Assembly (NCBI GenBank): GCA_913057985.1
Contig: CAJXPL010000016.1
Location: 1-64,000 of the forward strand
Length of the DNA stretch: 64,000 nucleotides
Reading direction: 5' to 3'
DNA from: an uncultured Synechococcus sp.
GTDB taxonomy: Bacteria > Cyanobacteriota > Cyanobacteriia > PCC-6307 > Cyanobiaceae
A program made the position numbers and the translations under genes. Below, piece by piece: positions 9,765-19,698 of this stretch; positions within the stretch are counted from its first letter, which is position 1, and every line of letters starts with the position of its first letter. The notes beneath the pieces were generated by a model that did not search any database, had not been told where the DNA came from, and saw nothing but the letters and a program-made list of their open reading frames with translations.

Positions 9765-11399
9765 ATGGCAAAGCGCATCATCTACAACGAGAACGCCCGT
9801 CGCGCTCTCGAAAAAGGCATTGACATCCTCTGCGAAGCCGTTGCCGTGACCCTGGGTCCCAAGGGCCGCAACGTGGTGCTCGAGAAGAAGTTCGGTGCAC
9901 CCCAGATCATCAATGACGGTGTCACCATCGCCAAGGAGATCGAGCTCGAAGACCACATCGAGAACACCGGTGTTGCTCTGATCCGTCAGGCCGCCTCCAA
10001 AACCAACGACGCCGCAGGTGACGGAACCACCACCGCCACCGTTCTGGCCCACGCCATGGTCAAGGCGGGTCTGCGCAACGTGGCTGCCGGTGCCAACGCC
10101 ATCACCCTGAAGAAGGGCATCGACAAGGCTTCCGATTTTCTGGTCGGCAAGATCAAGGAAATGGCCAAGCCCATCGCTGACAGCAATGCCATCGCTCAGG
10201 TCGGCACCATCTCCGCTGGCAACGATGAAGAAGTCGGCAAGATGATTGCCGATGCCATGGACAAGGTTGGCAAGGAAGGTGTGATTTCCCTCGAAGAGGG
10301 CAAGTCCATGGAGACCGAACTCGAGGTCACCGAGGGCATGCGCTTCGATAAGGGCTACATCTCCCCTTATTTCGCCACCGACACCGAGCGGATGGAAGCC
10401 GTCCTCGACGAGCCTTACATCCTTCTCACCGACAAGAAGATCGGTCTGGTGCAGGATCTGGTGCCCGTGCTGGAGCAAATCGCCCGCACCGGCAAGCCTC
10501 TGCTGATCATTGCTGAGGACATCGAGAAGGAAGCCCTGGCCACTCTGGTGGTGAACCGTCTGCGCGGTGTGCTGAACGTGGCCGCTGTGAAGGCTCCTGG
10601 TTTTGGTGATCGCCGCAAGGCCATGTTGGAAGACATGGCTGTGCTGACCAACGGTCAGCTGATCACCGAAGATGCCGGTCTCAAGCTGGAGAACGCCAAG
10701 CTCGAGATGCTGGGCACCGCCCGTCGCATCACCATCAACAAGGACACCACCACCATCGTTGCCGAGGGCAACGAGGCGGCTGTCGGCGCCCGCTGCGAAC
10801 AGATCAAGAAGCAGATGGACGAGACCGACTCCACCTACGACAAGGAGAAGCTGCAGGAACGCCTGGCCAAGCTGGCCGGTGGCGTGGCTGTGGTGAAGGT
10901 GGGTGCGGCCACCGAAACCGAGATGAAGGACAAGAAACTCCGTCTCGAGGACGCCATCAACGCCACCAAGGCGGCTGTTGAGGAAGGCATCGTTCCTGGT
11001 GGTGGCACCACCCTGGCTCACCTGGCTCCGGCCCTGGAGCAGTGGGCAGCCTCCAGCCTGTCCGGTGAGGAACTGATCGGCGCCAACATCGTGGCTGCTG
11101 CTCTTACCGCTCCGCTGATGCGCATCGCTGAAAACGCAGGTGCCAACGGCGCTGTTGTGGCTGAGAACGTCAAGGCTCGTGCTGGTGCCGAAGGCTTCAA
11201 CGCTGCCTCCGGCGAGTACGTCGACATGCTGGCTGCCGGCATCGTCGATCCCGCCAAGGTGACCCGCTCCGGTCTGCAAAATGCCGCATCCATCGCTGGC
11301 ATGGTGCTCACCACCGAGTGCATCGTGGCTGATCTGCCTGAGAAGAAGGAAGCAGCTCCTGCCGGCGGCGGCATGGGCGGCGGCGACTTCGACTACTGA
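9765..11399 (+). CDS. groEL: chaperonin GroEL (groESL-linked copy, GroEL1)
   Basis: The 60-kDa chaperonin subunit that forms the double-ring folding machine in the cytosol, 544 residues. The ATP site GDGTTT is at 85-90. The apical and equatorial domains are complete, and the protein ends in a Gly/Met-rich tail followed by DFDY ([11 protein letters not shown]), a little unlike the GGM repeats of E. coli. The ATG at 9765 follows groES by 77 bases. Two hairpins follow the gene, the second a good terminator. The opposite strand stays open through most of the gene, as expected at this base composition, and is not coding. Confidence 0.98.
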
Positions 11400-11452: not shown

Positions 11453-11478
11453 AAGAGGTCCTGCGGGGCCTCTTTTTT
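11453..11478 (+). terminator. rho-independent terminator of groESL
   Basis: The arms AAGAGG and CCTCTT carry a G+C-rich upper stem and loop and are followed directly by six T residues. It marks the end of the groESL transcript. Confidence 0.88.
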
Positions 11479-11520: not shown

Positions 11521-11620
11521 TCTGGTGCCTGGGGACCGGCGTTGGTTGCCGGCCATGAGGGATGAGGGGTGCGGAAAGGTGCCGGCTAACGTCTTGCTGT
11601 GTATCGATGTGTCGGGACAA

Positions 11621-11983
11621 ATGCCCCAGCGCCCCGGAGCTTTCGCCGCCCAGTTCGCTCCAGAGACGCTGCAGCGTTTCAAGGACCTCTGCCGTCAGCA
11701 AGACAAGGCCTACTCCAAGGTGTTGGAAAGACTTGCTCTGTTGTATGTCGAAACCAATGGTGCAATTCTTGTCGACCGGACTGCTTCAGGAGCTCCTGCT
11801 GTTGCAGCCCCAGGCGTTCAGAAGCGTCAGGTGCAGGTGGAAACTCTTCAGAACAAACTGCTTGAAGACCTGCTGAAGCGGGTCGAGATTTTGGAAAAGA
11901 AGGATGTGAAAATGCTATACGAGCTTGATCGGGTCTATAAAGAATTGGCTTTTTTGAAATCTGGCTTGCAAAGCCCCAGCTGA
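11621..11983 (+). CDS. probable ribbon-helix-helix protein with C-terminal coiled coil
   Basis: A 120-residue protein of no named family that I can assign. Residues 5-45 read AFAAQFAPETLQRFKDLC then RQQDKAYSKVLERLALLYVE. This is the strand-helix-helix pattern of Arc/CopG/ParD-type DNA-binding proteins: a short strand, then two amphipathic helices with a Ser cap before the second. After an Ala/Pro linker, residues about 70-115 form a heptad-like helix (KLLEDLLKRVEILEKKDVK). I chose the ATG at 11621; an in-frame ATG at 11555 and a GTG at 11525 would add residues lacking this pattern. It sits between groESL and the sulfotransferase block, downstream of a perfect palindrome, suggesting autoregulation. 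The family assignment is inference. Confidence 0.7.
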   Translation: MPQRPGAFAAQFAPETLQRFKDLCRQQDKAYSKVLERLALLYVETNGAILVDRTASGAPAVAAPGVQKRQVQVETLQNKLLEDLLKRVEILEKKDVKMLYELDRVYKELAFLKSGLQSPS

Positions 11984-11990
11984 TTAAAAG

Positions 11991-13004
11991 CTATTTCTCA
12001 ATAGCAAACTCATAGAGTTTTTGGCTGAGCTGGGATAGAAGTTGGTTGGTTTCAGCAGCAGAGAATTCCGATGAAAAGGTGATTGTTTCCTCAACAAATT
12101 GTTTGCCGAGTTTTTGTTTCATTTCTCGTTTGATCTGTTTAAAGTCGTCTTTGATTCCATCAAACTCCTGTTTTGTAAGCAAAAATTTAGCCTGCTCTGA
12201 CTGGCCTGAGATCGTTGTGAGTAGGTTTTTCAGTTTTCTTTGATCGGCGTGCGTGTGTTGCTGATTGAGGAAGTTTTGGAGCCGTGTGCTGACATTGCTT
12301 TTCGATTCGTTGGCATTGATCAACTTGTATTGATCTGAATCCTGGAGGCGAAGCACCTCTTGAAGAAGGAATAGAACAGGCCCCCCAGGATAGTTCGTTG
12401 CCTTTTTAAAAGGTATGTAATTTATCTTTTTCCCGAAAACTCGGTTCAGGACCCTGATCGACTTTGTCGATTTGGGGATTTTGACAAATTCATGGGATGC
12501 ACTGCTTTGAGCAGGGATCAAACGAATCCATGGGTGGTATTTACCATTCTTGATTGTTTGTTGTAGTGCAGAGGTGATGTACGCGTAGGGTGAACGTACT
12601 AAGGCAAAGGGTTCAATCAGGAAGCCATGCTGCTCCAGTTTTGATTTCAGTCTTGACAAGGATTTTTCAGACATGGTCGAAATTCCTTCTCCACTGATTA
12701 AGATATTCTGATCTTGTTCCAACAACTGTTTTAGGCTATGGCAGTGGTTATGTAAGGAATTTGAATGTTTATCGGTAGTTGGTTTAAAGCGATTATGACT
12801 ATTCCAAAAAAGCTGGGCGTTTTCATCAAAAATATCGCGAATTTGGCCGGAATGATTGCTAGAAAATTTCTTTTTTTTGCCTTCAAATTTTGGAAGAAAA
12901 ATTCCTCCTTGCTCAAGAAGTTTACGGTTGTGTTGCAGGGTCAGTTGAAATGAAGTTGTAGCTGTTTTGTGAAAGCCAAGGTGTAAATAACAAGTTTTTA
13001 CCAT
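11991..13004 (-). CDS. sulfotransferase-like protein A
   Basis: A 337-residue P-loop protein of the PAPS-dependent sulfotransferase type. YLHLGFHKTATTSFQ at residues 6-20 resembles the 5'-phosphosulfate-binding loop (family KTGTTWL). ILISGEGIS at 101-109 is a strand motif shared with its neighbours, and ALVRSPYAYITS, with Arg137 and Ser145, matches the 3'-phosphate-binding pair. These enzymes move sulfate from PAPS to hydroxyls, usually of sugars; the acceptor is unknown. There is no signal peptide, so it is probably cytosolic. The sequence is AT-rich with Lys/Asn/Ile-rich coding, unlike the flanking genes, which suggests transfer. It is nearest to gene B, just upstream on the same strand. 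Confidence 0.78.
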   Translation of the reverse strand: MVKTCYLHLGFHKTATTSFQLTLQHNRKLLEQGGIFLPKFEGKKKKFSSNHSGQIRDIFDENAQLFWNSHNRFKPTTDKHSNSLHNHCHSLKQLLEQDQNILISGEGISTMSEKSLSRLKSKLEQHGFLIEPFALVRSPYAYITSALQQTIKNGKYHPWIRLIPAQSSASHEFVKIPKSTKSIRVLNRVFGKKINYIPFKKATNYPGGPVLFLLQEVLRLQDSDQYKLINANESKSNVSTRLQNFLNQQHTHADQRKLKNLLTTISGQSEQAKFLLTKQEFDGIKDDFKQIKREMKQKLGKQFVEETITFSSEFSAAETNQLLSQLSQKLYEFAIEK

Positions 13005-13040
13005 AAGGGTAGTCGATTAAATGCTGAGAGGATGCTGATT

Positions 13041-14114
13041 TTATATAATCCCGTCTTGCTTGGATCTTTCTTTTCTGACCTGACTTGATCTGTCATTGGG
13101 TTGTGATGCAAGAAAAACGGCAGAGCGAGCGAGAGATTCAACGACATTGCTGATGTCTGTAACAGGATCAGAGAATTTAATTGCTTCCTTTGAAAACTCA
13201 GGTCCGAGGAGATTAGTTGTATCTTTATTGATTTGTTTATAGTGTTGCTTGACGAGTCCGAACTCTTTCTCTGTTAACAAAAATCGACCACTATCGAGTG
13301 TTTCAAGACCCTGTCGTACGAGCTTTAATGACGCTTTAGTACACTTTCTTCGATTGGATTCGAGCTTCAACTGTTTGTTGAAGAGGTTCATGGCACGCGC
13401 TTGAAGGTTGTTTAAAGATAAATTGCTCCGAAAGTCAGAGTCTTGACGTAATGACGACCATGGTAAGGGAAGACCAAGTTCTTCAAAGCAGAAAGCCACA
13501 GGGCCTTGAGGATGTTCAATGGCTTTTGAAAATGGTTGGAAGTTAATAGAGGCACCAAAAACATCTTTTAATGTCTTAATTTGGTTTGTACGATCTGGAA
13601 TTCTTTGGATACCTGATCCCTTGACTCTGTAGGGCTTGGTGAGGCCGATCAGTGGATGATAGCGTCCTGATTTAAGGGTTTCCTGAATAGCGGAACAGGC
13701 AAAGGAATATGGTGTACGCACTAAAGCTAAAACTTTTACGTTGTAGCCATAAACCTTAAGATCTTTGAGGAAATTTAGATAGTACTCTTTTGGCCAACAA
13801 GATAAAGCTTCGCCACTCAGAAAAAGATCATTGTCCTGCTTTAATGATTTAAGGTATCTGTTCTGATTGAAGCTTCGAAGTTCTCTCCTCTCCTTTGCAT
13901 TGGGCTTGCTTTTGAAAGGCTTTACTTGTCCTCGTTTGTAGATTTGTGTTAAAGGACCTGAATGATTCCAGAGATTGCCTTTATCTTCTGGATATATAAA
14001 TTTGGGGTAATAGATCCCTGCTGCCTCCAGAATATCCCTGTTTTTCCCGCAGATTTGCTGCAGAGTTGTTGTTGCAGTTTTATGAAAGCCGATATGGAAA
14101 TAGCATGTTTTCAT
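13041..14114 (-). CDS. sulfotransferase-like protein B
   Basis: A 357-residue paralogue of proteins A and C. YFHIGFHKTATTTLQQ (5-20) is the P-loop, NHSGPLTQIYKR (50-61) aligns with NHSGQIRDIFD of A, and LFLSGEALS (97-105) and LALVRTPYSFACS (Arg133, Ser141) complete the PAPS-binding signature. The segment after Ser141 (AIQETLKSGRYHPLIGL) is closely like that of A. It is 36 bases upstream of A on the same strand, so the two are probably co-transcribed from the 257-base divergent gap before gene C. The final 25 residues are polar and poorly conserved. AT-rich codon use continues through this gene. The sulfate acceptor cannot be deduced. Confidence 0.78.
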   Translation of the reverse strand: MKTCYFHIGFHKTATTTLQQICGKNRDILEAAGIYYPKFIYPEDKGNLWNHSGPLTQIYKRGQVKPFKSKPNAKERRELRSFNQNRYLKSLKQDNDLFLSGEALSCWPKEYYLNFLKDLKVYGYNVKVLALVRTPYSFACSAIQETLKSGRYHPLIGLTKPYRVKGSGIQRIPDRTNQIKTLKDVFGASINFQPFSKAIEHPQGPVAFCFEELGLPLPWSSLRQDSDFRSNLSLNNLQARAMNLFNKQLKLESNRRKCTKASLKLVRQGLETLDSGRFLLTEKEFGLVKQHYKQINKDTTNLLGPEFSKEAIKFSDPVTDISNVVESLARSAVFLASQPNDRSSQVRKERSKQDGII

Positions 14115-14371
14115 GTTTTTTTAGAAGGAAGCTTCCAGGATTGATTGCTAGCGAGATGCGGCTTCTAATCTTACCAAATTCCGCTCTTGCGATCCGTATA
14201 CATTATCCGTGATTGACAATCGCCGCTCTGCTTCTCTGAGCCAGAATGGATTTATCTCTTGATTTCTTATTTGTTTTTCGGAAGTTGATGGTTGTTAGGT
14301 GGTCGATTGATATCGATGAACGGATTTAGTCTGAACCGATGTAATATGGACATGCTGACGCCTCTTCATGC

Positions 14372-15391
14372 GTGAAAAAGTGCTTTCTACATTTGGGTTT
14401 GCATAAGACAGCGTCTTCATCGTTTCAGCAGACGTGTGCCTCGAATCGAAAGTTATTGGCAAAAGAAGGGCTACACTACCCATTATTTTCTTGCGTCTAT
14501 TCTCGACCCAAGCGCTTAAAGATTAATAATCATTCTGTTCCATTACGGTCAATTTATGATCGTAATCCTAGAAATTATCACATCAACAAGCGTTGGAATA
14601 TTCAGCAGATTGATGAGGCAATTCACGATTATGAAGTTCAGTTCGCATCGGTGCTTGCTAGCGACTCTTCCATCATTCTCAGTGGCGAAGGTTTATCTTT
14701 ACTCAGTACTACAGCACTATCGCAACTGGTTGAACGCATTCAAGCTATGAATTTTGCTATTCATCCCATTGCATTGGTGCGATCGCCTCTGGATTACGCT
14801 CATTCAATTGCTCAGCAACTAATTCGCGGAGGTCAACATCTTGAGCTTGTTGGCTGTGGTTCATTGCTATCGCCGCAGTCCATGAAGCGATTGACTATTC
14901 CTGATGGCCAACGTGAAATTTTGAATCTCCTATCTGTATTTGGAGATCAACTTACTTTAGTACCATTTCGTCGTGCATGTTCCCACCCACAAGGCCCGGT
15001 TGGTTTTCTTCTTTCCGAGTTTTGTGGTTTTTCGAAACTCGATCTCATTAAGTTTCAAAGTAGTCAGGAATCAAAGAGTAATGGATGGGTTCGAGTGCAA
15101 AATCTAATCAACAAACGTTGGCCAATTTTTGATCAAAAGAAGCAGCTGAATCCTGATCATTTTCGCTTGCGTCATGAGCTTGATTACACAGGAAAATTTA
15201 GGTTGACAAGCAAAGAGATTGAATTGCTAAGTAGTCAAATAGAGAAATCAAATCACTCTATGATTAATTTGCTTTCTGATGAATTTGTAATTGCTGATAA
15301 TTTTGTCTCGGAGGAGCTTTCGGCTTCGGATCTTGCCAAAGTTGTTGCTGATTTGTGCAAAATAAGTTTACCTAGCCATGATGTCTTTTGA
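14372..15391 (+). CDS. sulfotransferase-like protein C
   Basis: A 339-residue paralogue of A and B on the opposite strand. FLHLGLHKTASSSFQQ (5-20) is the P-loop, NNHSVPLRSIYDR (52-64) corresponds to NHSG of A and B, and IILSGEGLS (101-109) and IALVRSPLDYAHS (Arg137, Ser145) are conserved. It starts with GTG at 14372; an ATG four bases earlier is in another frame, and no in-frame ATG lies upstream near the P-loop. It diverges from B across 257 AT-rich bases (14115-14371) that show no gene and presumably hold both promoters. Its last 20 bases overlap the end of gene D tail to tail. Confidence 0.76.
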   Translation: MKKCFLHLGLHKTASSSFQQTCASNRKLLAKEGLHYPLFSCVYSRPKRLKINNHSVPLRSIYDRNPRNYHINKRWNIQQIDEAIHDYEVQFASVLASDSSIILSGEGLSLLSTTALSQLVERIQAMNFAIHPIALVRSPLDYAHSIAQQLIRGGQHLELVGCGSLLSPQSMKRLTIPDGQREILNLLSVFGDQLTLVPFRRACSHPQGPVGFLLSEFCGFSKLDLIKFQSSQESKSNGWVRVQNLINKRWPIFDQKKQLNPDHFRLRHELDYTGKFRLTSKEIELLSSQIEKSNHSMINLLSDEFVIADNFVSEELSASDLAKVVADLCKISLPSHDVF

Positions 15392-16550
15392 GTTGAGCTT
15401 GTTGAAGTAGTTCCGCGAGTTGCTGGCCTTGTGGTCGATTGGCTTTTGCTATTTCTAAAAGTTCAACCTTGACATTGGGGGGGATTGCATTTGACTGACT
15501 TGTTTTAATTAATGTGTCGACAGTTTGGTTACTTAGTCTTTTGGCAGGATCGTCTCGTAGTGCTTCCAGAAGAGTTTGGCTGATCAAATTGCAGGAGAGT
15601 TTTTCTTCTTGTCTGATTTTCTGTTGTGTTTTTGGGTCTTTATTTGATGTTTTGCTGCGATCAAGCGTATTTAGGCATGTCAGAGCCTCGTTAGTGCCTA
15701 GGTATTCATTGATTGTTTGGATATAAATATCGTTTGTTTTATATAGTTTCTCGAAGGCTTTTGCAGACATTCGGCACTGTTGTGTTTCTGTATGTGGCAA
15801 CTCTTTAGCCAGTGCATCTGAAATTCGTGTGCTAATCCATGGATATTGATCGTAATAAAGAGCATTGATCATCATTAGCATCTGAAGTTCTTTGAGGCTT
15901 AAGCTGCGGTTGATAACTAGACCACTCATTTCTTTCTCTGGATAGAGCTCTCCGCAATTCATGATTTCGAAGATTTTTTTTCCAATAGTTTTTTTGTGTC
16001 GAGAGTAATTGATTAGCGAAAAAGAAATCTTTTTGTGGGAGAGTTGGGTTAAAACTTCTGCTGCCTTCTTGTGGTGAGATGAGACGAATTGTCTTCGTTT
16101 GAGAAACTGTTCAAACGGCTTGCTTTCTCCGTGTCTCTTGACGCGCTGCTGGTATTCAGAAGACAGCATTTCCTCCAGCTCACGGACAGCAAGAATCGCA
16201 TGCAGTTCTATGGACTGATCCCACTTTTCCTGCTCCTCAATCATTTCCGGCAAATGCCAGAACAGTGATTCGGAGCTCAAGACGATGTTGCAAGTTGAGG
16301 CATTGGACGATGCCAGCTTCATGCATTGTTCGGTAAGACTGGTATTAGGGTTGTGCGCCCAATTTCCTGAGGTGATTTCAAAGCGCGCTGCTTTTTGTTG
16401 TAAAGCTGAATTAATTGGATAATTTATATCGCTTTTTATGAGTTTATCTGCGGCAATTGCTAGTGCTGATTGAACTGCGGAAGTTCCTGTTTTTCCATGT
16501 CCAATATGAAGAAAAATTTTTGTTTTTGCCAACGTCTTAACTTCGTTCAA
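15372..16550 (-). CDS. sulfotransferase-like protein D (divergent member)
   Basis: A 392-residue protein with IFLHIGHGKTGTSAVQ at 12-27, a good PAPS-type P-loop and in fact nearer the KTGTT consensus than its neighbours. IVLSSESLF (89-97) and ILAVRELEEMLSSEYQQ (Arg123, Ser130/131) match the shared strand and 3'-phosphate motifs. Beyond these it has little likeness to A, B and C. The C-terminal 90 residues (LEALRDDPAKRLSNQ onward) are a helical, Gln/Leu-rich extension absent from the others. It converges on C with a 20-base overlap and diverges from E across about 120 bases. Like A-C it is AT-rich. Confidence 0.72.
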   Translation of the reverse strand: MNEVKTLAKTKIFLHIGHGKTGTSAVQSALAIAADKLIKSDINYPINSALQQKAARFEITSGNWAHNPNTSLTEQCMKLASSNASTCNIVLSSESLFWHLPEMIEEQEKWDQSIELHAILAVRELEEMLSSEYQQRVKRHGESKPFEQFLKRRQFVSSHHKKAAEVLTQLSHKKISFSLINYSRHKKTIGKKIFEIMNCGELYPEKEMSGLVINRSLSLKELQMLMMINALYYDQYPWISTRISDALAKELPHTETQQCRMSAKAFEKLYKTNDIYIQTINEYLGTNEALTCLNTLDRSKTSNKDPKTQQKIRQEEKLSCNLISQTLLEALRDDPAKRLSNQTVDTLIKTSQSNAIPPNVKVELLEIAKANRPQGQQLAELLQQAQLKRHHG

Positions 16551-16673
16551 CCTACTTTAGCACTTCTTTTTTTGGGCTCCGCTCTTCTATCTCGTCAATG
16601 GTTTTTCTCTGTGTTGCATCGTTGAGCCCGGTTGTCATAGTCTTATGCCATCTTTGAGGCGTTGAGGTTCTGG

Positions 16674-17792
16674 ATGTCACGGACTTTGGTCATCCATGTG
16701 GGCGCTCAAAAGTGCGCCTCTTCGTCTCTTCAGGCTTCTTTGAGGCTTGCGCATCAAGCTCTCAAAGGCCATTTTGGGTTTTGTTTTTTGAACCCAGCGC
16801 AATTGCGTTCTGCTGATCTTGCCCTCGCTGAGCGGCAGCCCATTGCTGATGCTTTTGCCTATATCGATCAAGTTCTCGCGCGTCAGACAGCCGACCAGGT
16901 TGTTATCAGCCACGAAATGCTTGGCAATCGCCCAGTTTTGGTCGGCGCTATTGCTGAGCGTGCAATTGCGACATTCTCATTTGACCGCGTTGTGATTTCT
17001 GGCTATACGAGATTGCAATCTAGTTATAATATATCTGCATTTTCACAGTGGTTTTTCCGTGATCGAAAGAGGCTGACTTCGGATATCAATGTTTTTCAAG
17101 AACTTGGTTTGCCATGGCGTAAATTTACGGCTCAAGAGCGGCATTTGTTTGCCCTATCCTATTCTGGGCGGGATAGGAATTGGTTTTCCAATTACAAGCG
17201 CTTTTGCTCTGAAGTGTCCCATCTTTCGGGCCGCGTCGAGGTTGTTAGCTGTCACATACCTACGCGTCATTTGCCCTATTCGCTTTTACGTCATTTTCTT
17301 GAATCCACTGGATTGAATTTTGAGCATGAAGATCTTGGGTCGATGGATGTTAGGAAAAATCAATCTTTCGACCCAATCGTTATTCAGGGTATTTCCAACT
17401 TTTCTAGTGAACTTCCTCTCCGTAGGCAGTCATTTTTCCCTGGGCCTCATGAGGGGAATCGCTGGTTGTTTCGTGTGTGCGACCGGGTTGTTGATCGTGA
17501 GGACTTAACCCGCGAATTCGAGGACTTATTCTCCCCTTCGTTTCAGCAGAATTTGGTCAACCATATTGATAGTAGAACGGCTAAAAGTAATATTGAATAT
17601 TGTCAGTTGATGTCAGTCGATCCGCGCTACTTTGAGCCAGAACCTGGTGCGCTTGAGCGTGCATCCGATGAGCTCGTGGATTTTGCTTCTCAGGTGGCTT
17701 TAAAGCGAAAAATGAAGTTAATTATGGCTTATAATCGAGCAATTGAAGATGAGTGTTTTAGGGCTGCTCGCTTGGAGATTGTCAGCACTTAG
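16674..17792 (+). CDS. sulfotransferase-like protein E (most divergent member)
   Basis: A 372-residue protein at the right edge of the island. LVIHVGAQKCASSSLQ (5-20) keeps the glycine and lysine of the P-loop but has Cys-Ala instead of Thr-Gly/Ala. VVISHEMLG (76-84) matches the strand motif of A-D, and RVVISGYTRLQSSYN (105-119) takes the place of the Arg/Ser segment. It is probably a distant sulfotransferase; activity is less certain than for A-C. The ATG at 16674 was chosen over an in-frame TTG at 16662 that adds four residues. Base composition is less AT-rich than A-D, as though it had a different history or longer residence. It ends 35 bases before the convergent secG. Confidence 0.66.
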   Translation: MSRTLVIHVGAQKCASSSLQASLRLAHQALKGHFGFCFLNPAQLRSADLALAERQPIADAFAYIDQVLARQTADQVVISHEMLGNRPVLVGAIAERAIATFSFDRVVISGYTRLQSSYNISAFSQWFFRDRKRLTSDINVFQELGLPWRKFTAQERHLFALSYSGRDRNWFSNYKRFCSEVSHLSGRVEVVSCHIPTRHLPYSLLRHFLESTGLNFEHEDLGSMDVRKNQSFDPIVIQGISNFSSELPLRRQSFFPGPHEGNRWLFRVCDRVVDREDLTREFEDLFSPSFQQNLVNHIDSRTAKSNIEYCQLMSVDPRYFEPEPGALERASDELVDFASQVALKRKMKLIMAYNRAIEDECFRAARLEIVST

Positions 17793-17827: not shown

Positions 17828-18061
17828 TTAAGGATTTAACCAGCCAGCGCTCAGGATCACAGCCAGAGATAAAAACAATGCAAGGCATGTCCATGTCAGC
17901 CGGTTCAACGTTGCTTCTGCACTGCTGGCGCTGCTGAACATGGAGCTGCCGCTTGCCGCCAGGCCACCCATCCCATCACCTTTGGGGCTATGCAGCAGAA
18001 CCAAGACGATCAACAGAAGGCCGGTGCCGATCCAGCTCCAGGACAAAATTGAGGTGAGCAT
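17828..18061 (-). CDS. secG: preprotein translocase subunit SecG
   Basis: A small subunit of the SecYEG channel, 77 residues with two membrane helices (about 7-24 and 52-73). The family-typical loop LLHSPKGDGMGGLAASG lies between them. The ATG at 18061-18059 shares a base with the TGA of gpmI (TGATG), so secG is probably translated from the gpmI message; a TTG one codon earlier is possible. It is the first ordinary high-GC gene after the sulfotransferase block. Confidence 0.93.
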   Translation of the reverse strand: MLTSILSWSWIGTGLLLIVLVLLHSPKGDGMGGLAASGSSMFSSASSAEATLNRLTWTCLALFLSLAVILSAGWLNP

Positions 18062-19698
18062 CAAACGGAAAGAGGAAGGCGGGCGGTCTTGGGGGTGGGG
18101 TCCATATTGGACATGGGTGCAATCAGGCTTTGGCCAGTCATGGCCGCCGGTTGTGGAAGCTCAAGAATTTGCAGCAACGTCGGAGCGATATCGGCCAGAC
18201 CCCCGTTATCGCGCAATGTGATGGCGTTGCCATGGCCAGGCAGTTTGCGCCGTTCTCCTTCGACCAGGATCGCAGGAACAGGATTGGTGGTGTGGGCTGT
18301 CCAGGCTTGGCCATCTGGGCTTTGCATCAATTCGGCATTGCCGTGATCAGCCGTGATCAGCATGGTTCCGCCCTGGCGTCCCACCGCATCCAACAACCGG
18401 CCAATGCAGGCATCCACGGTTTGGATGGCTTCCTTGGCGGCCTCCATCACACCGGTGTGCCCCACCATGTCGGGGTTGGCGTAGTTGATCACAATCAGCG
18501 AATAGTCCGCCTTTTCAATGGCTGAAATGCAGCTGTCGGTGAGTTGCTCGGCCGACATCGCCGGTGAGAGGTCGTAGGTGGCGACCCTCGGCGAGGGAAC
18601 TAGGTGACGGTCTTCTCCCGCCAGTGGCTGTTCGATGCCACCGTTCATGAAGTACGTGACGTGGGGGTACTTCTCTGTTTCGGCGGTGCGGTACTGCTTC
18701 AGCCCGGCGTCTGCCACCACCTGCCCCAACAGTTGGTCGAGCGGCTCGGGGGGGAAAGCCACTTGAACGGGGAGGTCTTGTTCCACCTGGGTGAACGTGA
18801 CCACATCCAATTCCGGCGTGTGGCTGCGCTCGAACCCCTCGAAATCGGGGAGGCAAAGCGCTTGCACGATCTGGCGGGCGCGATCCGGTCGGAAGTTGAA
18901 CACCAGAACGCTGTCGCCGTCCTTGATGACGCTGTTCTGAAGCCGCACCGGTTCGAGGAATTCATCGGTGATGTTCTCGGCATAACTGTCCGCTAACACC
19001 TGCTCTGCCGTCCGGCTGTCGACGGCGATGTTGGGATCGGTGTAGAGGTTGTAAGCCTTTTCGATTCGCTCCCAGCGCTGGTCACGGTCCATGGCCCAGT
19101 AGCGGCCACAGAGGCTGGCAATGTGACCGACGCCGCCTCGGCTCAGGGCCGCTTCCACCTGGCTGATGTATCCCCGTGCGCTCTGGGTCGGTGTGTCGCG
19201 ACCATCGGTGATGGCATGCACGGCGACATCAGAGATGCCGCTGTCGGCTGCCCACTGGATCAGTCCACAGAGATGGTCCACGTGGCTGTGGACGCCCCCA
19301 TCGGAGCAGAGGCCGAGCAGGTGCAAGGTGCCGCCTCGCCCTTGGGTGCGCTCTGCCAATTCCTTGAGTGCCTGCGTGTCGCCCAGTTGGTTGCTGCGCA
19401 CCGTGTCGCTGATTCGCACCAACTCCTGGCGAATGATGCGGCCGGCTCCGATGGTGAGGTGGCCCACCTCAGAGTTACCCATCTGTTGATCGGGGAGGCC
19501 CACATGGGAGCCACTGGCCTCAATCAAGGTGTGTGGATAGGCATGCCACAGGGCATCCATCACAGGAGTGCCGCCTTGCTGAATCGCGTTGTGCTCGCTT
19601 GCGTTCCTGTAACCCCAGCCATCAAGAATGGCGAGAACGACCGGTGCCACTGTCCCGGAGCGTCCTGAACCGTTGGTAGTGCTTTTCCCCACGTTCAC
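18061..19698 (-). CDS. gpmI: 2,3-bisphosphoglycerate-independent phosphoglycerate mutase
   Basis: Interconverts 3- and 2-phosphoglycerate in glycolysis and in carbon flow out of the Calvin cycle. It needs Mn2+ and belongs to the alkaline-phosphatase fold. [15 protein letters not shown] holds the first metal Asp, [11 protein letters not shown] the phospho-serine nucleophile, and ITADHGNAE the C-terminal metal site. At 545 residues it is full length. The start is uncertain: GTG at 19698 is taken, but GTG at 19692 and later GTG codons up to the conserved APVV would also serve, as the first 15 residues are not conserved. It is coupled to secG downstream. Confidence 0.94.

Follow-up and report, generated by a model that had tools for sequence, protein, structure and literature searches.

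The groEL-secG interval of an uncultured Synechococcus sp. probably holds a replacement-type island of five divergent sulfotransferases that would depend on 3'-phosphoadenosine-5'-phosphosulfate (PAPS), with content exchanged through the conserved flanks, a surface or secreted glycan as the target, and occasional seeding by integrative elements. The island lies in a stretch of 64,000 nucleotides (the window; positions 1 to 64,000 of contig CAJXPL010000016.1, assembly GCA_913057985.1), which is part of a 2.43-Mb genome (G000) in 61 contigs. Its five-gene set looks to have been swapped in by recombination, and the swap plausibly changed the sulfated cell surface. The five genes (A to E) and their surroundings, named from open reading frames (ORFs) and the analyses given with each, are as follows.

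11991..13004, minus strand: gene A, A/B/C-family sulfotransferase-like, 337 amino acids (ORF, alignments, profile)
13041..14114, minus strand: gene B, A/B/C-family sulfotransferase-like, 357 amino acids (ORF, searches, alignments)
14372..15391, plus strand: gene C, A/B/C-family sulfotransferase-like, 339 amino acids (ORF, structure model)
15372..16550, minus strand: gene D, sulfotransferase-like, 392 amino acids; its 3' end overlaps C (ORF, alignment, profile comparison)
16662..17792, plus strand: gene E, divergent sulfotransferase-like, 376 amino acids (ORF, alignment, profile comparison, poor model)
9765..11399, plus strand: groEL, left conserved flank, protein identity 94-99.8% in the fetched relatives that hold groEL (ORF)
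11385..11399, plus strand: 3' end of groEL, 15 bases (codons D-F-D-Y-stop), where an integrative element probably attaches
11525..11983, probable start 11621, plus strand: small ribbon-helix-helix-like gene 'sm', between groEL and gene A (ORF)
11700..11780, unstranded: inferred left crossover zone inside 'sm' (sliding identity, ten relatives compared)
17828..18064, minus strand: secG, right conserved flank, named by sequence and position; island identity stops at its 3' end (about 17850)
18061..19698, minus strand: gpmI, core gene used as species marker (ORF, genus search, tree)

An earlier note on this DNA, made from the letters alone, had called A, B and C close paralogues. They do form one family, but their pairwise identity is only 29-36% (29-32% by alignment, 31-36% by search), and their divergence appears to be old because all three have orthologues in genomes G151 and G160. 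The same note had seen three motifs in all five proteins (a P-loop, a strand that closes on S-x-E, and an Arg/Ser pair), and alignments of relatives bear this out. In 35 rows of the A/B/C family, an HxGxxK P-loop with an invariant lysine lies near the N terminus, and H7, G9, K12, Q19, S104, E106 and R137 are invariant, S145 nearly so. K20, S92, E94 and S131 are invariant in 14 rows of D, with R123 nearly so, as are K17, S83, E85, R117 and S125 in 12 rows of E. The Arg and Ser stand 8 apart in all five proteins (B R133/S141, C R137/S145, D R123/S131, E R117/S125). This is also the distance between the Arg and Ser that bind the 3'-phosphate in known PAPS sulfotransferases.

When the 35-row A/B/C profile was compared with the PDB, it matched the sulfotransferase 3rnl (E 3e-5), CurM (0.045) and heparan 3-O-sulfotransferase 5 (0.053). 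B as a single query matched no sulfotransferase in the PDB and nothing in a collection of genome contigs. The predicted structure of C (predicted local distance difference test score, pLDDT, 92.6) had 3rnl as its best structural match (Z 11.8 over 220 residues, root-mean-square deviation 4.4), followed by heparan N-sulfotransferase 1 (NDST1; Z 11.7) and 3-O-sulfotransferases (Z about 11). The predicted fold of C and its P-loop and Arg-Ser arrangement resemble those of 3rnl and of the heparan sulfate N- and 3-O-sulfotransferases, whereas its identity with them is just 9-14%. The assignment of A, B and C to the PAPS-sulfotransferase type, which the earlier note had made for all five genes, is well supported by this profile and this model. 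For D it is supported by profile-profile comparison with A/B/C (99.2%). E, for which that comparison is weaker (95.8%) and the model poor, may be of the same type. Against the PDB, neither the D nor the E profile matched a sulfotransferase. The genome encodes an adenosine 5'-phosphosulfate kinase, so PAPS could be made. Additionally, A, D and E are under purifying selection: their ratios of nonsynonymous to synonymous change between the window and G061 are 0.11, 0.08 and 0.11. Synonymous sites are saturated for C, and for B against G169.

Two observations weigh against this assignment. None of A to E scored above a cut-off in Pfam or NCBIfam, with Sulfotransfer_1, _2, _3 and _4 giving no match to them at E<=1; a Sulfotransfer_1 match at E<=0.01 occurs in 3 of the 35 A/B/C-family rows. 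In addition, the model of E (pLDDT 68) matched 3rnl (Z 10.1) and a fungal RNA kinase (Z 9.8) almost equally. If A to E were P-loop kinases, or nucleotide-binding proteins other than sulfotransferases, this near tie would fit, as would the adenylate kinases further down the list of matches to C (Z 7.9 and below) and the NCBIfam adenylate kinase model on D (E 0.012, far under its cut-off). We regard that explanation as unlikely. Only sulfotransferases fill rows 1-26 of the C list; their alignments span 189-228 residues and stop at model residues 297-312, whereas those of the adenylate kinases stop at residues 219-229. The A/B/C profile matches sulfotransferases of known structure, the Arg/Ser spacing of 8 is retained, and Sulfotransfer_1, _2 and _4 genes above their cut-offs occupy the same slot in relatives. 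A known anti-phage defence system was also considered and rejected, as PADLOC gave no convincing match among A to E: the sole match to E was Csf4 (E 0.008), and A to D and 'sm' had none at E<=0.01.

The slot between groEL and gpmI was compared among relatives. gpmI was found in 31 of the 34 genomes of the genus, with no match in G165, G166 and G171. We compared the intervals of 27 relatives, of which 25 are complete; L059 and L076 were dropped because a contig end cuts the interval. G167 and G177 are outside the comparison, and G158 (L226) is outside the 25. Sulfotransferase-like genes, of about seven families, are present in 21 of the 25 complete intervals. Relatives of A/B/C, D or E occur in 15, and six more have other sulfotransferase-like genes: Sulfotransfer_1 genes in L067-L069, a Sulfotransfer_4 gene in L071, a Sulfotransfer_2 gene in L065, and in L075 a Sulfotransfer_3 match of 24.1 bits, below the cut-off of 27. 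The remaining four intervals are short (1.08-1.22 kb) and without a sulfotransferase-like gene. Two of these four belong to G131 and G153, the nearest relatives of the window (gpmI 97% and 96% identical).

The complete A to E set recurs in the distant G151, in the same order and on the same strands, and in G160, where A and B are swapped and a Sulfotransfer_2 gene is inserted. Full-length D and E genes adjoin gpmI in the slot wherever they occur among the 34 genus genomes (15/15 for D, 13/13 for E at matches <1e-100; both counts take in the window genome and G158, and that of E also G172). groEL is also seen beside these copies except in G158 (D, E) and G172 (E), where it lies off the stretch. 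Weaker relatives of E stand elsewhere in G155 (1.9e-56), G154 (1.5e-52), G000 (4.2e-41) and G158 (6.4e-22), which weighs against our main reading; an A/B/C relative also lies outside the slot in G155. A, B and C were searched for in 151 genomes of the family and 386 of the phylum, rather than in every genus genome. Near copies of the A to E genes in a second collection, where the profile scan took the best 80 of 129 loci, were all in Synechococcus records (L144, L145, L146 and L149), which we take to be marine.

The slots of relatives are gene-by-gene mosaics. A protein family of 462-484 amino acids adjoins D in seven strains, all of them without A and C; the one member scanned had no Pfam match. 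The D alleles of strains of the A/B/C type form one supported group (96/100), apart from these seven strains. The members of the 462-484-amino-acid family are:

L053, 4554-6005
L054, 11149-12546
L057, 4535-5950
L058, 11493-12944
L060, 4940-6346
L061, 12275-13660
L066, 4303-5739

Sulfotransferases are common accessory genes in this genus, and the slot is still enriched in them. Across the 34 genomes there are 99 Sulfotransfer_1 and 104 Sulfotransfer_2 matches, 203 together, with some genes matched by both. Five matches lie in the slot, against 0.33 expected (Poisson 2.6e-5; calculated with 204 matches and an expectation from slot length alone), and they are not independent because three belong to one family. 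A Sulfotransfer_2 match below 1e-30 occurs in 24 of the 34 genomes. The window genome has a second sulfotransferase place on contig C15 (4194-5598), with adjacent Sulfotransfer_1 and Sulfotransfer_2 matches. Lone sulfotransferase-like genes among frames of higher GC content lie at L120:9245-10339 (contig C10 of G000; GC 0.41), L122:8839-9972 (contig C8 of G000; 0.55) and L115:9385-10425 (G121; 0.50). Sulfotransferase-like genes thus seem to be scattered singly through these genomes.

The content of the slot appears to be exchanged by homologous recombination at its borders, as gene trees and a breakpoint support. The window groups with G061 in the trees of A (100/98), C (100/100), D (97/98) and E (85/100). 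In the gpmI tree it groups with G131 and G153, in a ten-member set that excludes G061 (96/98). In approximately unbiased (AU) tests the core grouping is rejected by D (p 8.5e-5 and 3.2e-7) and by E (p 3.7e-8). Conversely, gpmI rejects the island grouping (p 2.4e-4), which was named after the island trees had been seen. Sliding identity against ten relatives places G131/G153 nearest over the greater part of groEL and on into 'sm' as far as about 11700, except for one late groEL bin nearest to G170 and a last bin nearly tied with G169. Past about 11700 the nearest is G169 or G061, and from about 17850 it is again G131/G153. This change of nearest relative suggests one crossover inside 'sm'. Together with the presence and absence of genes among relatives, the tree conflict and the breakpoint support the swappable module that the earlier note had proposed.

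Other results fit this exchange less easily. In the B tree the window groups with G169 (85/81) rather than with G061, which has no B. The island copies of the window and G061 are 66-74% identical, below the 89% of gpmI, so a donor would be unsampled, or old paralogy with differential loss may account for the pattern. No near-identical island was seen in two distant strains among the compared intervals. One could read the island as an old vertical cluster that has been lost repeatedly, in which ancient duplication and rapid evolution, and not exchange, put the trees in conflict; the far divergence between the G061 and window copies and the retained gene order and strands in the distant G151 would agree with this. 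We think this history rather improbable, because the AU tests contradict vertical inheritance of the island, and the nearest relative switches inside 'sm' and returns to G131/G153 at secG.

As the earlier note had observed, the block is AT-rich against its flanks: the 1-kb bins between 12 and 18 kb, six in all, have a GC content of 0.38-0.46 and the other 58 bins of the window 0.57-0.70, and GC at third codon positions (GC3) is 0.34-0.44 for A to E compared with 0.76 for groEL and 0.73 for gpmI. For that note, the same five genes with ordinary composition in every relative would have spoken against a variable island. Gene content between groEL and secG does vary, but low GC is common to 25 of 26 complete intervals, the window included (at least 0.07 under their own gpmI; the exception is L067), and is thus not special to the window strain. 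For this reason we rejected the view that low GC shows the block to have arrived recently. The GC3 of D does not follow that of its host (14 genomes; Spearman 0.29, p 0.31). The five genes were found as open frames in the mixed orientation that had been described (- - + - +), and a reading of A to E as a single operon was rejected because the genes lie on both strands and the numbers of promoter- and terminator-like sites do not exceed chance expectation (7 against 9.3, and 8 against 8.0). The only convincing stem lies 3' of groEL, at 11453-11474.

Recent phage cargo was rejected as a source, since scans of viral contigs and phage records gave no close match. The E profile and the integrase scan found nothing in the viral contigs, and tblastn of C and of the integrase of L071 found nothing in phage records. 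The A/B/C profile recovered four distant relatives in viral contigs (L110-L113).

Integrative elements have probably brought new content to the slot at times. The 3' end of groEL is probably an attachment site, as extra copies of its last 15 bases adjoin integrase genes in three stretches:

L058, 3233-10880
L071, 2334-11980
L225, 8640-10524

Among the 26 complete intervals, extra copies occur in L058 and L071 only, and these are the intervals with Phage_integrase matches in a Pfam scan that covered some of the intervals (L071 at 26.7 bits, just below the cut-off of 27.1). The copies sit just past the integrase gene, and L058 has another just after groEL. The L071 integrase as a query matched nothing in the other 24 intervals, and among its 32 matches listed for the genus none was in the slot beyond L058 and L071. 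L071 combines an integrase gene with direct repeats. In the window the 15 bases occur once (within 2 mismatches) and G000 has no integrase match, so the island there does not have the marks of an integrative element. In the L058 stretch there are also a resolvase, a weak DruA-like match and a NikA-like protein that scores under its cut-off; the stretch of L071 includes a ParB/N6-N4 methylase-like protein.

Among 201 genomes of the family, a single homologue of the integrase turned up, and it belongs to another genus (L225 in G082; 33%). Its contig also carries gpmI, a relative of 'sm' and the 15-base groEL end twice in tandem. In both L071 and L225 the 'sm' relative and the integrase gene have overlapping 3' ends, and 'sm' may thus be what remains of such an element; in Pfam 'sm' matched RHH_9, under cut-off only. 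Three results weigh against this seeding. The L058 (G162) integrase match has one internal stop, and the gene may thus be broken. The L225 contig does not include groEL, and it has two further genes that separate the place of secG, on the gpmI side, from the integrase. Lastly, of five strong homologues (E <1e-50, query included) two are in groEL-secG intervals, one is beside gpmI in the other genus and two are elsewhere; an integrase bound to the groEL site was therefore rejected. In L233 (7390-8781, G156) and L234 (7046-8419, G004), homologous integrases adjoin a conserved 141-amino-acid gene, downstream of what is presumably a ubiE-like methyltransferase gene, and this is perhaps a second protein-gene integration site.

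Our model of how the island works has several parts. The P-loop lysine would bind the 5'-sulfate/phosphate of PAPS and the Arg/Ser pair its 3'-phosphate, and the conserved glutamate of the S-x-E motif is a candidate catalytic base. Sulfate would then be put on surface or secreted glycans, whose glycosyltransferases are probably coded elsewhere. Strains would swap content when their conserved flanks recombine homologously, with one crossover inside 'sm', and new content would probably be seeded from time to time by integrative elements inserting at the groEL 3' end. A bolder proposal, which we put forward only tentatively, is that one integrase lineage with the groEL 3' end as its attachment site seeds a sulfation slot across the genus and perhaps in a second genus, and that sulfotransferases of unrelated families subsequently take each other's place there, gene by gene. 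The slot would in that case be an exchangeable sulfation code, like an O-antigen locus but made of modifying enzymes only.

The target is the part of the model on which we are less certain. There is a fair chance, though we hold it the lesser one, that sulfate goes to small metabolites, lipids or protein (S-layer, pilus subunit) and not to surface polysaccharide. The window's own island has no glycosyltransferase or export gene, which counts against a glycan, and the matches to C include the small-molecule sulfotransferases CurM and StaL and protein tyrosine sulfotransferases. Conversely, the top matches to C after 3rnl are glycan sulfotransferases, and relatives have glycosyltransferases (GT92, GT61, GT2; L064, L065, L068 and L071), methyltransferases (L064, L073) and a GSCFA protein (L071) in the slot. 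In viral L111-L113, relatives of A/B/C stand beside frames that look glycosyltransferase-like by eye. Surface decoration, the target that the earlier note had suggested, is plausible from these predicted neighbours.

The closest known kind is the replacement flexible genomic island (Lopez-Perez et al. 2014; PMC4033161), and we regard the block as such an island filled with sulfotransferases. According to the main text of that study, complete clusters for the O-chain, flagellum glycosylation or the S-layer are exchanged; sulfotransferase and Synechococcus do not occur in that text. Shared with those islands are a fixed slot, gene sets that differ yet have similar functions, flanks that recombine homologously, and surface-related content. 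Unlike them, the window slot has modifying enzymes only, the slots of relatives are mosaics of single genes, and there is a probable integrase site at the border. The tycheposons and tyrosine-recombinase islands of marine bacteria, as outlined in PMC10872708, have variable cargo and border tRNA genes. Integrase-bearing intervals of relatives, with their variable cargo, are like these, whereas the repeat here is the groEL end and 24 of 26 complete intervals have no match to the L071 integrase.

In Synechocystis 6803, the synechan (xss) cluster is described as plasmid-borne, with two sulfotransferases, eight glycosyltransferases and Wzx/Wzy (PMC8205485). Both are cyanobacterial sulfotransferase systems, and the xss pathway makes a sulfated extracellular polysaccharide; here, by contrast, five sulfotransferase-like genes without a Pfam match vary among strains and have no glycosyltransferase or export gene beside them. 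From the same account, sulfated exopolysaccharide is a cyanobacterial speciality among bacteria and cyanobacterial sulfotransferases mostly sit in polysaccharide clusters, so the window set would be atypical. No literature on this groEL-secG locus was found by title or abstract among the open-licence matches listed.

Surface glycans are widely held to decide which phages and grazers attack marine Synechococcus. The benefit of the island may be an altered sensitivity to them, and a fixed slot of swapped sulfate-attaching enzymes would allow the sulfation pattern to be linked to strain-level phage and grazer sensitivity by deletions and swaps. In addition, the island adds divergent sulfotransferase-like families that are unnamed in Pfam and NCBIfam, and it points to an integration site in a protein gene, groEL.

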